64,000 nucleotides of DNA from Saccharospirillum mangrovi (GTDB taxonomy: Bacteria > Pseudomonadota > Gammaproteobacteria > Pseudomonadales > Natronospirillaceae). Of this stretch, positions 23,329-36,020 are shown one piece after another. Below the pieces are notes generated by a model. The model saw only the letters and a list, made by a program, of their open reading frames with translations, did not search any database and was not told the DNA's origin. Location: positions 2,974,001 to 3,038,000 of the forward strand of contig NZ_CP031415.1 of NCBI RefSeq assembly GCF_003367315.1, written 5' to 3'. A program made the position numbers and the translations under genes. How positions within the stretch are numbered: the first letter of the stretch is position 1; every line of letters begins with the position of its first letter.

Positions 23329-23348
23329 GCCCGGCAAACTCGAGCGAT

Positions 23349-23378
23349 AAAAAAAGCCACCCGAGGGTGGCTTTTTTT
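23349..23378 (+). terminator. Bidirectional intrinsic terminator
   Basis: GCCACCC / GGGTGGC stem flanked by an A run on the left and a run of seven T on the right, between the convergent mrcA and malic enzyme genes. It should work in both directions. Confidence 0.9.
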
Positions 23379-23394
23379 ATGTCCGTTCGGACGC

Positions 23395-31890: not shown

Positions 31891-32271
31891 ATGAGCCAAG
31901 CCCCGACCGCACTCAACTATCGCCGCGTCGACACCGAGCTGGACATCACCTGGCCGGACGGCACGGTGCATCGGTTGAGCGCCGAGTATTTGCGCGTGCA
32001 TTCGCGCTCAGCCGAAGTGCGCGGCCACGGTGCCGGTCAGGCGATTCTGCAACACGGCAAACGCGGCGTCGGCATCAACGCCATCGAGCCGGTCGGCCGC
32101 TACGCGGTGCGACTGGTGTTCGACGACGGCCACGATTCGGGTCTGTACGACTGGGGCTATCTGCGCGAACTGGGCGATCGGTTCGACGATCATTGGCAGG
32201 CTTATTTGGATGCATTGGCCGCTGCCGGAAAATCGCGCGAGCCGATGTTTATTCAGGCGAAGCAGCTTTAG
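31891..32271 (+). CDS. DUF971 domain protein
   Basis: A 126-residue cytoplasmic protein made almost entirely of the DUF971 domain, also seen as the N-terminal domain of gamma-butyrobetaine hydroxylases. The typical ITWPDGTVHRLSAEYLRVHSRSAE and SGLYDWGYLREL stretches are present. It follows hslU by one base, the same context as in Pseudomonas, so it belongs to that transcript. Stand-alone members are thought to bear on iron-sulfur or metal handling, but the function is not settled. Confidence 0.85.
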   Translation: MSQAPTALNYRRVDTELDITWPDGTVHRLSAEYLRVHSRSAEVRGHGAGQAILQHGKRGVGINAIEPVGRYAVRLVFDDGHDSGLYDWGYLRELGDRFDDHWQAYLDALAAAGKSREPMFIQAKQL

Positions 32272-32307: not shown

Positions 32308-32429
32308 GAGATCCCGGATATGGCTGCGCCATTCCGGGATGACGGGGTCAGTTCAGTTGCCAAGTTATAACCTGACTTCAGTTACCGCCTCGTCATCCCG
32401 GAAAGGCCAACGGCCTTATCCGGGATCTC
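32308..32429. repeat. Pair of inverted REP-like hairpins
   Basis: Two hairpins in opposite orientation between hslU-DUF971 and ubiD. Left: ATCCCGGA / TCCGGGAT (32311-32318 with 32333-32340) then GACG. Right: the mirror image at 32391-32429 (CGTCATCCCGGA to TCCGGGATCTC). The outer 13 bases (32308-32320 and 32417-32429) and the inner 13 bases (32332-32344 and 32391-32403) are each perfect reverse complements, so the whole 122 bases can also fold as one cruciform. Confidence 0.8.
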
Positions 32430-32523: not shown

Positions 32524-33987
32524 ATGAAATACCGCGATCTGCGCGACTTCCTGACCGGCCTGGAACAACGCGGCGAATTGCTGCGCATCACCGAGCCGGT
32601 GAATCCAAAACTGGAAATGACCGATCTGTGCGACCGGGTGTTGCGCAAGGCCGGCCCGGCGTTGTTATTCGAAAACCCGACCGGATTCGATATGCCGGTG
32701 TTGGGCAATTTGTTCGGCACACCGGAACGTGTCGCCATGGGTATGGGCGCGGAATCGCTACAGGATTTACGCGAGATCGGCAAAGTGCTGTCTTACCTGA
32801 AAGAACCCGATCCGCCCAAGGGTTTAAAAGACGCCTGGGACAAAGCGCCGCTGCTGAAAAAAGTGCTGTCGATGGCGCCGAAAACGGTGCGCAAGGCCGC
32901 CTGCCAGGAAGAAATCTTCGAAGGCCCGGATGTCGATCTGGGCAAGTTGCCGGTCTGGACCTGCTGGCCGGAAGACGCCGCACCCTTGGTCACCTGGCCG
33001 TTGGTCATCACCCAAGGCCCGCAAGGTGGCCGCGTTAATCTGGGTATTTATCGGCAGCAGGTGATCGGCAAGAACAAGCTGATTATGCGCTGGTTGTCGC
33101 ATCGTGGCGGCGCGTTGGATTTTCAGGCCTGGCAAAAAGAAAAACCCGGCGAGCCGTTTCCGATTGCCGTTGCCCTCGGTGCCGACCCGGCGACGATTTT
33201 GGGCGCGGTCACCCCGGTGCCGGATTCGTTGTCCGAATACGCCTTTGCGGGTTTGTTGCGCGACAGCCGTACTGAGTTGGTCAAATGCGGCATTCACGAT
33301 TTAAAAGTGCCGGCCAGCGCGGAAATCATTCTCGAAGGCTTTTTGTACCCGGGCGAGATGGCCGACGAAGGTCCGTACGGCGACCACACCGGCTATTACA
33401 ACGAAGTCGAGTGCTTCCCGGTGTTCACCGTCGAGCGCATGACGCATCGCCACAACCCCATCTACCACTCCACCTACACCGGCCGCCCGCCCGATGAACC
33501 GGCGGTTCTGGGTGTGGCATTGAACGAAGTCTTCGTGCCGATTCTGCAAAAGCAGTTTCCGGAAATTGTCGACTTCTACCTGCCACCAGAAGGCTGCTCT
33601 TACCGACTGGCCGTGGTCAGCATGAAGAAGCAGTACGCCGGCCACGCCAAGCGCGTGATGATGGGCGTCTGGTCGTTCCTGCGGCAGTTTATGTACACCA
33701 AGTACGTGATCGTGGTCGATGACGACGTTGATGCGCGCGACTGGAAAGACGTTATCTGGGCGATGACCACGCGCATGGACCCCAAGCGCGATACCGTGCT
33801 GATCGAAAATACACCCATCGATTACCTCGATTTCGCCAGCCCGGTAGCCGGTCTCGGCTCGAAGATGGGCATGGACGCAACCAACAAGTGGCCGGGCGAA
33901 ACCGACCGCGAATGGGGCCGGCCGATCAGCAAGGACGCCGAGGTGTCCAAAAAAGTGGACGAATTGATGAACAAATTGGGTTTATGA
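32524..33987 (+). CDS. ubiD: 4-hydroxy-3-polyprenylbenzoate decarboxylase
   Basis: Prenylated-FMN-dependent decarboxylase of ubiquinone synthesis. The 487-residue protein has the family regions [25 protein letters not shown] (cofactor and metal contacts) and [12 protein letters not shown], and the C-terminal [18 protein letters not shown] signature. It needs the flavin prenyltransferase UbiX, not seen here. The Fre-like reductase two genes on mirrors the ubiD-fre pairing of E. coli. Confidence 0.95.
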
Positions 33988-34073
33988 GTCGCAGACCGGT
34001 ACCTTGATTTCCCAGGATTCAGCAATAAAATCCTGACCGTTCATTCAAGTATTGCAAGGCAAGGGCACCCTTC

Positions 34074-34487
34074 ATGCAGTGGTTAGAAATCTACGGTTAC
34101 CTCGGTTCCGCCTTGATCGCCATCTCGTTGATGATGGGCGACATCCGCAAACTCCGTTGGATCAATCTCGTCGGCGCCAGCACATTCTCCAGCTATGGTC
34201 TGATGATTCAGGCCTGGCCGGTGGCTCTGCTGAACGGCTTTATCGTGCTGATCGACATCGTGCATCTGTGGCAGATTTACCGCCGCCCGGCGCCATTGAG
34301 CCAGGTCGATTTCGATGGCGACGACGCCTACGTGCGCAATGTGCTGGTGCAGAGCCTGCCGCAGGCGAGCGCCGTTGAAGCCGGCCAACGCATTCGCGTC
34401 AGCTACCGTGGCAGCCAGCCAGTGGCGTTGGAATTGCTGGCTTCGGAAACCCCGGCGCTGCGCAACAACGAGTCGCTCGCCGCCTGA
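34074..34487 (+). CDS. YgjV-like inner membrane protein
   Basis: A 137-residue protein with three or so hydrophobic helices in the first 70 residues (LEIYGYLGSALIAISLMM, WINLVGASTFSSYGLMI, VALLNGFIVLIDIVHLW) and a soluble C-terminal tail of about 65 residues. The membrane part resembles the YgjV-like family of inner membrane proteins. Function unknown. It lies between ubiD (about 90 bases upstream) and the Fre-like gene, on the same strand. Confidence 0.65.
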   Translation: MQWLEIYGYLGSALIAISLMMGDIRKLRWINLVGASTFSSYGLMIQAWPVALLNGFIVLIDIVHLWQIYRRPAPLSQVDFDGDDAYVRNVLVQSLPQASAVEAGQRIRVSYRGSQPVALELLASETPALRNNESLAA

Positions 34488-34500
34488 GTCATTCCGCTAA

Positions 34501-34559
34501 AAACAGGCTCCGTTGACTGTGTATAATGTCCATTGACATTGACCAAACGGAGCCTGTTT
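34501..34559 (+). promoter_or_regulatory. Perfect 14-bp inverted repeat before the flavin reductase gene
   Basis: Arms AAACAGGCTCCGTT (34501-34514) and AACGGAGCCTGTTT (34546-34559) enclose 31 bases. Inside is a second hairpin AATGTC-CATT-GACATT (34525-34540) and a perfect TATAAT (34522-34527). The right arm contains the GGAG ribosome site of the next gene and ends one base before its GTG, so a transcript reading through from upstream could hide that site. It may instead be an operator. Confidence 0.75.
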
Positions 34560-34560
34560 C

Positions 34561-35274
34561 GTGTCCACACCCCAGCTGCACACCGCCACCCTCCACGATC
34601 TCAAAGCCCTCAGCGGCGACGTCTGGCAGGTGCAACTGAAACCGCTCACCCCCTATTCCTTTGAAGCCGGCCAATACCTGCAATTGCACATTCCTGGCTT
34701 CAACGACCTGTATTACACCATCGCCTCTGCGCCGCAGAACCCCTGTCTGGAACTGCACATTCAGACCGGCACCGACCAGGCCGACGCGTTGATCGCGCAT
34801 TTGAAACACGCCGAATCGGTACAACTGAGCGACCCCGGTGGCGACACCCGCCTAAGCCAATTGCCGGTTGAAACCGGCCCGCTGCTGCTGATCGCCTCCG
34901 GCACCGGCTTCAGCCAGATCAAAGCCATCGTCGATGACTTGCTGGCGCAACACAGCACGCGACCGCTGTATCTGTACTGGTCCGGCCACCGGCTCAGCCA
35001 GTTGTACATGCTCGAGCGCGCCGAACATTGGGCCGATCAATATGCCAACGTCCACACCTCGGCGCTGATTTTTGAGCAGAGCCATTGGGACGACAAACAC
35101 CAGATGCTGGTCAACGCCATTCATGGCGACCACGACGATCTCGACCAATGCCAGGCCATTTGCTGCGGCTCACCGGCCATGGTCTACACCCTGCTCGATG
35201 CGCTGTGCGAACAAGGCTTCCGAACCGACGCCATGCTCAGCGACGTCTTTCAATTCGCCCCGAGGGAAGCTTGA
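34561..35274 (+). CDS. Fre-like NAD(P)H-flavin reductase
   Basis: A 237-residue ferredoxin-reductase-fold protein that aligns along its length with E. coli Fre. FEAGQYLQLHIPG and LYYTIASAP mark the flavin domain, and LIASGTGFSQIKA the nucleotide domain. Fre-type enzymes reduce free flavins with NAD(P)H. The RPFS flavin motif is LYYT here: Leu50 stands where Arg is expected, so flavin handling may differ. The start is GTG with GGAG 8 bases before it. It overlaps the TrmB-type regulator by one base (TGATG). The ubiD neighbourhood supports the Fre assignment. Confidence 0.8.
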   Translation: MSTPQLHTATLHDLKALSGDVWQVQLKPLTPYSFEAGQYLQLHIPGFNDLYYTIASAPQNPCLELHIQTGTDQADALIAHLKHAESVQLSDPGGDTRLSQLPVETGPLLLIASGTGFSQIKAIVDDLLAQHSTRPLYLYWSGHRLSQLYMLERAEHWADQYANVHTSALIFEQSHWDDKHQMLVNAIHGDHDDLDQCQAICCGSPAMVYTLLDALCEQGFRTDAMLSDVFQFAPREA

Positions 35275-36020
35275 TGAACACCGCCGATGTACTGCGCACC
35301 TTTGGTTTGGAACCGCGCGAAACGCGCATTTATCTGGCCTTGCTGCAATCCGGCCCGGCGTCGATTCGCGACATCGCCGACCGCGCTGGCATCAACCGCG
35401 GCACCACGCACGAGTTGCTCAAGCGCATGCAGCAAAAAGGCGTGGTCAGCTATTTTCCCAAAGGCAAGCGCCGCCATTTCAGTGCTGAGCCGCCGAAGCG
35501 ATTGAAAGAGCTGGCGCTCAATCACCAGCAGCAGGTGACCGAGGCGATGGAGTTGCTGGATGAAAAAGTGATACCGGAACTGAGCCATTTACGGCCAGCC
35601 ACCGGCAACGCCGATGTGCATTACTACGAAGGCGACGACGGCATTGAGCTGGTGTTGAAAGACATTCTGTCGACCGTCAGCGAACAGGAAAACCCGTCTT
35701 ATTGCATTTATTCGGCCAAGGCGATTCGAAAATACCTGTACCGGCCGTTCCCGAACTACACCCGTCAGCGGGTCAAGCTGGGCATCAAGGTGCGGGTGAT
35801 CGCGATTGGTGAAGGCGGCGAGGAAGCGGCGTTGGCGGATCGGAAATGGATCAACGAAGCGTCGAGCGAACGCGCCGGCAGTTACATCGCCATCTACCCG
35901 CCGAAAATGGCGATGATTTCGTTAAGCCACGGCGACCTGCCGACCGCCGTGGTCATCAACTCTCCCACCATCGCCAACACTCAGCAGACCATTTTCAATA
36001 CCCTCTGGGATTCGCTGTAA
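35274..36020 (+). CDS. TrmB-type helix-turn-helix transcriptional regulator
   Basis: A 248-residue regulator. The first 80 residues form a winged HTH (LGLEPRETRIYLALLQ-like opening, here starting FGLEPRETRIY, then IADRAGINRGTTHELLKRM) of the TrmB family, followed by a short coiled segment (about 85-105) and a C-terminal effector domain of unclear ligand. The ATG at 35274 has GAGGGA upstream; a longer frame from 35085 lies over the reductase gene and is rejected. Overlap with the reductase stop suggests one operon and possibly autoregulation through the upstream inverted repeat. Confidence 0.8.
   Translation: MNTADVLRTFGLEPRETRIYLALLQSGPASIRDIADRAGINRGTTHELLKRMQQKGVVSYFPKGKRRHFSAEPPKRLKELALNHQQQVTEAMELLDEKVIPELSHLRPATGNADVHYYEGDDGIELVLKDILSTVSEQENPSYCIYSAKAIRKYLYRPFPNYTRQRVKLGIKVRVIAIGEGGEEAALADRKWINEASSERAGSYIAIYPPKMAMISLSHGDLPTAVVINSPTIANTQQTIFNTLWDSL

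Follow-up and report, generated by a model that had tools for sequence, protein, structure and literature searches.

Introduction

Work by Davis, Simons, and Kleckner in 1985 reportedly concerned the protection of Tn10/IS10 from external promoters; inward read-through messages are said to fold over the transposase ribosome site, and messages from the element's own promoter are said not to do so. For gene e of phage T4, passages of PMC3014915 (where McPheeters et al. 1986 is given as the original paper) describe longer, upstream-started messages that form an inhibitory structure over the ribosome site and yield 100-fold less lysozyme, late-promoter messages that lack the 5' portion of the helix, and, in related phages, a late promoter located within the region encoding the 5' strand. 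According to an excerpt of PMC2988022, the hairpin of I-TevI is present on read-through messages only, late-promoter messages lack it, and an operator overlaps the promoter.

Here we describe a candidate for a comparable arrangement in a 64,000-nucleotide stretch of Saccharospirillum mangrovi DNA (contig NZ_CP031415.1, positions 2,974,001 to 3,038,000 of the forward strand), referred to below as the window. A literature search returned no paper with both Saccharospirillum and flavin reductase, and this locus was absent among the matches listed. Read-through masking is not treated in the passages considered from PMC8450116 and PMC4265352, and related terms are absent from PMC5006887.

Gene content and order at the fre locus

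The gene at the center of this study, fre (34561..35274, plus strand), has a GTG start and encodes a 237-amino-acid NAD(P)H-flavin reductase-like protein, for which the best NCBIfam match, NF005963, scores 143.8 bits, under the cut-off of 230. Its stop codon is overlapped by the ATG of trmB (35274..36020, plus strand), which encodes a TrmB-type HTH regulator of 248 amino acids (PF01978, E 3.2e-12). Upstream of fre and codirectional with it are ubiD, for 4-hydroxy-3-polyprenylbenzoate decarboxylase (32524..33987, plus strand; NF008175 at 918.9 bits, exceeding the cut-off of 788), and a small gene (34074..34487, plus strand) that ends 13 bases before the left arm of the inverted repeat described below and is a possible source of read-through. 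The 137-amino-acid protein that it encodes had no Pfam match at 0.001, and we read its sequence as that of a membrane-type protein. A separate 20-base inverted repeat (32328-32407), 90% complementary and with a 40-base spacer, lies between ubiD and an open reading frame of 126 amino acids (31891-32271).

Matches to fre (E <= 1e-30) occur in 20 of the 22 genomes of the family, and TrmB orthologues (E <= 1e-8) in 13 of 22. The same-genus genomes Saccharospirillum sp. MSK14-1, MAG M30B14, S. impatiens, and S. salsuginis all have ubiD, the small membrane-type gene, fre, and trmB in this order. The same arrangement is also found at five of seven loci of the next genus, g2, which we take to be Reinekea; there, L007 is without the small gene and L011 without trmB. 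TrmB identity is 94 to 98% within the genus and 84 to 89% in the next genus, whereas the overlapping fre is only 71 to 80% identical within the genus.

An inverted repeat ends at the fre start codon

The arms of the repeat, AAACAGGCTCCGTT (34501-34514) and AACGGAGCCTGTTT (34546-34559), are 100% complementary (14/14 pairs) across a loop of 31 bases, and an inverted-repeat search confirmed the exact placement of these perfect arms and loop in the original prediction. On the plus strand, the left arm includes GGCTCC, which is complementary to the ribosome site, and in relatives the two arms covary; GGAG (34549-34552), located 8 bases ahead of the GTG, is part of the right arm. As had been claimed, GGAG lies in the right arm and that arm ends at 34559, one base short of the GTG at 34561. 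Both can be read directly in the sequence, as can the second 6-bp inverted repeat reported for the loop (AATGTC, 34525-34530, and GACATT, 34535-34540) and the TATAAT that overlaps it (34522-34527).

Perfect 14-base inverted pairs with loops of at most 40 bases were present in 2 of 100 base-shuffled windows. The real window has two of this class, the fre repeat and a terminator-like hairpin at 23347-23380; the latter, a perfect 16-base hairpin with an A run before it and a T run after it, resembles a bidirectional terminator. When folded as RNA, positions 34482-34600 reach -34.3 kcal/mol (z -3.98), with none of 200 shuffles as good. An exact 13-mer of the arm occurs in its own genome only as the two arms, and thus the arm is not a dispersed repeat.

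Instead, the repeat could terminate or attenuate transcription of the ubiD operon upstream and extend to the fre start codon by chance. T residues follow a GC-rich stem in two genomes (TTT at the arm end in the window, TTTTT in MSK14-1), as such a role would predict. However, the loop is about 30 bases long (31 in the window) rather than short, and no T run follows the stem in S. impatiens or the MAG. A terminator scan of 33900-34700 found none, and hence no short-loop terminator between the upstream genes and fre; as it allows loops of 3 to 8 bases only, it could not have found this one. We consider termination or attenuation quite improbable.

A conserved promoter-like block lies between the arms

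In the spacer alignment of the five fre-bearing members of the genus, the block ACTGTGTATAATGTCCATTGACAT (34516..34539, plus strand) forms 24 consecutive invariant columns between variable arms and is followed by invariant ACCAA and GGAG; the arms otherwise vary. The block, a putative promoter and operator, includes TATAAT (34522..34527, plus strand; invariant in 5/5 sequences of the genus), the putative -10 element of a nested fre-trmB promoter. No recognizable -35 element accompanies this TATAAT, and the promoter scan did not report a promoter here. The -10 element and the expected start point are overlapped by the inner palindrome AATGTC-CATT-GACATT (6+4+6; 34525..34540, no strand assigned), which is likely an operator.

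At the fre promoter, the palindrome core is ATGTCCATTGACAT in all five fre-bearing genomes of the genus (G000, G001, G002, G004, and G005), and in the other genus it is ATGTCCATGGACAT in G020 and ATGTCTATGGACAT in G018. The exact form of the palindrome occurs at one place only in each of the five. ATGTCYATKGACAT has exact matches in 8 of the 22 genomes, seven of them at fre and the eighth, in G019, elsewhere. The fre pairing tests exclude G019 (L009), whose fre spacer reads N.

Arm letters change and pairing is kept

The original prediction proposed that a lack of conservation or of covariation of the arms in relatives would count against it. When this was examined, the letters of the arms proved to differ between relatives, and their complementarity was kept. 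Because MAFFT alignments leave the left arms unaligned by pairing, pairs were counted from per-sequence duplexes. The window and MSK14-1 have most of their arms in common. At start-anchored position -5, four of the five genus members pair, as A-T, C-G, G-T, and T-A; the register of pairing in the window is shifted by one because its ribosome site sits one base further from the start codon. In S. salsuginis, a different stem, of 9 bp, occupies the same position; in it, CGGAAACTC pairs with GAGTTTCCG and the first base of the start codon is included. G018 has another stem, of 10 consecutive pairs (TCTTCGCGCG with CGCGCGAGGA), one of which is a T-G pair.

This pattern bears on an alternative in which the TrmB-type protein binds the DNA of the outer arms, or of the inner palindrome only, and represses its own operon, with no role for RNA. 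A protein site would keep its letters, whereas the outer arms change theirs and remain complementary. T-G pairs, tolerable in RNA but not in a DNA palindrome, are found inside the stems of S. impatiens (-8), S. salsuginis (-11), and G018 (-10). These pairs, together with bulges and changing letters, favor action in RNA.

In arm exchange, left and right arms of different loci were combined, and for the seven palindrome-bearing loci, from two genera, the native pairing was the single best of 5,040 arrangements; this subset was picked by the palindrome after the shuffle z-scores and opening energies had been seen. A single event may be counted twice when loci are related, and close relatives were therefore removed one after another: the native arrangement was the best of 720 once the window was out and the best of 120 when S. 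impatiens was removed as well. Among the five genus members, it ranked 1 of 120. With all 10 scored loci, 5 of 200,000 random arrangements were as good using a 36-base left region (7 of 200,000 with 50 bases), and 47 and 51 of 200,000, respectively, were as good when the window was removed from this set. The native left arm ranked first for 6 of 10 right arms (36-base region). L013 (G015), a near-copy of L012, was kept in the per-locus z-scores and omitted from the Fisher sum, arm exchange, opening energies, pair-type counts, and upstream 36-mer comparison. At the level of sequence, these comparisons demonstrate that the pairing of the arms is conserved between relatives.

Shuffle controls

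Against dinucleotide shuffles with a 70-base left window, the arm-pairing z was -4.05 for the window, -3.72 for MSK14-1, -2.22 for S. impatiens, -1.53 for the MAG, -2.06 for S. salsuginis, -1.68 for G020, and -4.51 for G018. All seven palindrome-bearing loci are thus at or below -1.5, as are 6/7 with a 30-base and 5/7 with a 50-base left window; z falls to -1.27 (30) and -1.23 (50) for the MAG and to -1.36 (50) for G020. Four of the seven loci are weak when considered individually, with z by window of -1.23 to -1.53 for MAG M30B14, -1.36 to -2.25 for G020, -1.62 to -2.22 for S. impatiens, and -1.79 to -2.51 for S. salsuginis. Upstream 36-mers that pair as well with the right arm numbered 18 of 1,278 for S. 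impatiens, 49 of 1,278 for S. salsuginis, and 28 of 1,278 for G020, and none of 1,278 for the window, MSK14-1, the MAG, and G018.

Among 248 other gene starts of the same genome, picked by rule and with coding sequence in many of the left regions, 27 reach z -1.5 and 1 reaches -4.05 (mean, -0.02). The crude gene caller behind this set omitted fre, for which it preferred a longer overlapping frame, and the left windows of the per-locus and genome-control scoring are the same for the window's gene and a few bases apart for others. Control starts at fre loci without the palindrome and at glmU were likewise picked by rule (3 of 21 glmU loci yielded none); z -1.5 is reached by 1 of 8 of the former (mean, -0.44) and 1 of 18 of the latter (mean, 0.05). 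No pairing was seen with the 70-base window in G017 (z 1.49), G021 (0.65), or G015 (0.65), in which trmB is present and the palindrome is absent. G006, without trmB and the palindrome, has z -2.87, and its predicted read-through RNA is no more closed than its promoter RNA (opening at 9.6 versus 10.0 kcal/mol). In view of these four exceptions, few loci support the association of the hairpin with the palindrome.

The weakness of four loci taken singly is what would be expected if the pairing in the window were due to chance and the relatives were alike by descent. This explanation was already disfavored, as the native arrangement is also the best without the window and the controls are without such pairing, and we regard it as extremely improbable.

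Predicted accessibility of the ribosome site

We compared predicted read-through RNA, carrying 80 extra bases upstream of TATAAT, with promoter RNA starting 12 bases past the first base of TATAAT. Opening the region from GGAG (GAGG in G018) to the start codon costs 9.4 to 21.6 kcal/mol in the former and 3.5 to 8.3 kcal/mol in the latter. The paired values (read-through/promoter, in kcal/mol) are 21.6/8.1 for the window, 18.5/8.3 for MSK14-1, 9.4/6.5 for S. impatiens, 15.0/5.3 for the MAG, 12.6/5.5 for S. salsuginis, 15.6/7.3 for G020, and 14.2/3.5 for G018. At all seven palindrome-bearing loci, the ribosome site of the predicted read-through RNA is wholly or partly enclosed in a stem formed with sequence upstream of TATAAT, and its mean unpaired probability is 0.08 to 0.26, versus 0.29 to 0.52 in promoter RNA. 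S. impatiens is the weakest case: its predicted left partner sits further upstream than in the other loci, and with 45 upstream bases its read-through RNA is no more closed than its promoter RNA (0.36 versus 0.31).

A message starting just after TATAAT had been expected to be open. It is indeed predicted to be easier to open, but the ribosome site is not free in the predicted fold: in the best fold of the window's promoter RNA, GGAG pairs with CUCC inside the gene, at -8.9 kcal/mol, which is no better than shuffles (z 0.48).

The enclosure of ribosome site and start codon in predicted read-through RNA would also suit a regulated RNA switch (a thermosensor, a ligand sensor, or a coupling device), in which the read-through transcript would be the principal message and a signal would open the hairpin. 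Against this, Rfam 15 gave no matches in the window at gathering scores and none in 34400-34700 up to E 1, leaving the ligand-sensing sense of the switch originally suggested without support. In addition, arms and loops vary, and the only conserved element is the promoter block. Across the seven palindrome-bearing loci, the distance between TATAAT and the upstream stop codon ranges from 11 to 258 bases (the upstream stop of G006 was left out of this comparison), and a fixed distance for coupling is thus not seen. We also disfavor translational coupling to the upstream gene because the hairpin persists in S. salsuginis, where the stop is 258 bases ahead of TATAAT. We judge a regulated switch of any of these kinds to be highly improbable.

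The TrmB-type regulator and its possible operator

At E <= 1e-40, 68 of the 390 genomes from the order have a TrmB orthologue, and 56 of these 68 belong to other families; no match was found in a plasmid collection at E 1e-20. None of the 18 out-of-family trmB loci that were fetched has fre within about 1.5 kb, whereas 7 are beside glmU and 5 beside glmS. An exact TTGTCA-N9-TGACAA is found upstream of 11 of these 18 trmB genes, and all 11 are glm linked. Within the family, the motif (at most 2 mismatches, in the 300 bases before glmU) is present in 13/13 TrmB-bearing genomes, for which 0 to 9 of 200 shuffled controls were as good, and in 1/8 without TrmB. The exception is G003, of the same genus, which has no close fre (E <= 1e-30) and no TrmB orthologue, yet a good TrmB-type motif before glmU; recent loss and an assembly gap are alternative explanations for what is missing there. 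Given that trmB adjoins glmU or glmS at 12 of the 18 out-of-family loci and that TTGTCA-N9-TGACAA goes with these loci and with the glmU promoters of the family (window 35274-36020, L100-L110, L114, and L138-L158), the TrmB orthologue is probably a controller of UDP-GlcNAc synthesis. TrmB is not named among the literature matches listed for this regulator.

The repeat at fre had been put forward as an operator for TrmB. For the outer 14-bp arms this finds no support, as their letters are not conserved; the conserved inner palindrome could serve. The operator interpretation therefore shifts from the arms to the palindrome, which is a possible site for TrmB although the orthologues go with a differently spaced one: the half-sites TGTC and GACA of the fre palindrome are common to TTGTCA-N9-TGACAA, and the spacing differs (4 versus 11). 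As for repression through DNA with no part played by RNA, the trmB gene is co-encoded with fre and overlaps it, and the palindrome, in its exact form at one place per fre-bearing genome of the genus, is conserved over the -10 element. These features fit such repression, but the association of TrmB orthologues with TTGTCA-N9-TGACAA at glmU and glmS, of which there is no exact copy at fre in the window's genome, points the other way, as do the changing letters and T-G pairs of the stems. On balance, we find this explanation unlikely.

Discussion

We think it reasonably probable that an RNA hairpin enclosing a promoter keeps read-through messages of fre-trmB from being translated, in the manner of T4 gene e and I-TevI, a view in which the read-through masking proposed originally is backed by covarying arms, predicted folding, and the T4 precedent. 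A message reading through from ubiD and the small membrane-type gene would carry both arms. Its right arm, with GGAG and reaching the start codon, would be locked in the stem, and fre would be poorly translated. Transcription from the nested promoter would start about 7 bases after TATAAT, near 34534, and the resulting message, without the left arm, would open its ribosome site more easily and be translated. With a repressor on the palindrome over the -10 element, fre-trmB could then be controlled in a way that read-through does not circumvent. A candidate for this repressor is the co-encoded TrmB, in which case the loop would be autoregulatory. Together, the block, the promoter in the loop, and the repressor would ensure that read-through from ubiD does not evade control at the nested promoter.

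More tentatively, and as a suggestion that falls somewhat short of probable, we propose that this cellular metabolic operon has the three-layer lock of T4 (a repressor site, a promoter nested in a hairpin, and a ribosome site masked on read-through), which keeps fre-trmB under its own promoter only, and that such locks could be common at internal promoters. As the hairpin is kept by compensating changes and its letters drift freely, locks of this kind would be invisible to sequence searches. If we are right, the locus provides a comparative case, on a bacterial chromosome, of translational insulation against read-through at an internal promoter of a gene cluster. It also suggests a genome-wide test, in which covarying pairing would be sought between the region just upstream of internal -10 elements and the ribosome site that follows. 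RNA-seq coverage would, moreover, say less about expression, as read-through RNA over fre may be largely silent.

T4 gene e, I-TevI, and Tn10/IS10 are the closest described systems. In T4 gene e, as described in the passages of PMC3014915 cited above, the ribosome site is likewise held in a helix only in upstream-started messages, as predicted here. There, however, the setting is the timing of phage lysis and the effect is a measured one (100-fold), whereas fre, for a flavin reductase, and the regulator gene paired with it are chromosomal and have a putative operator, and the effect here is predicted from opening energies. I-TevI, in the part of PMC2988022 considered, combines the same three layers that we propose for fre, namely, hairpin, nested promoter, and overlapping operator. 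Its binder is I-TevI itself, and it is an intron-borne homing endonuclease rather than a cellular operon with a putative operator. Covariation between relatives, which we bring in as further evidence at fre, is not part of how these two reviews define such hairpins. Tn10/IS10 is a mobile element, whereas the fre arm has no further exact copy in its genome. We do not claim homology with any of these; the way of working that fre would share with T4 gene e and I-TevI suggests the same known kind of lock, placed in a cellular setting.
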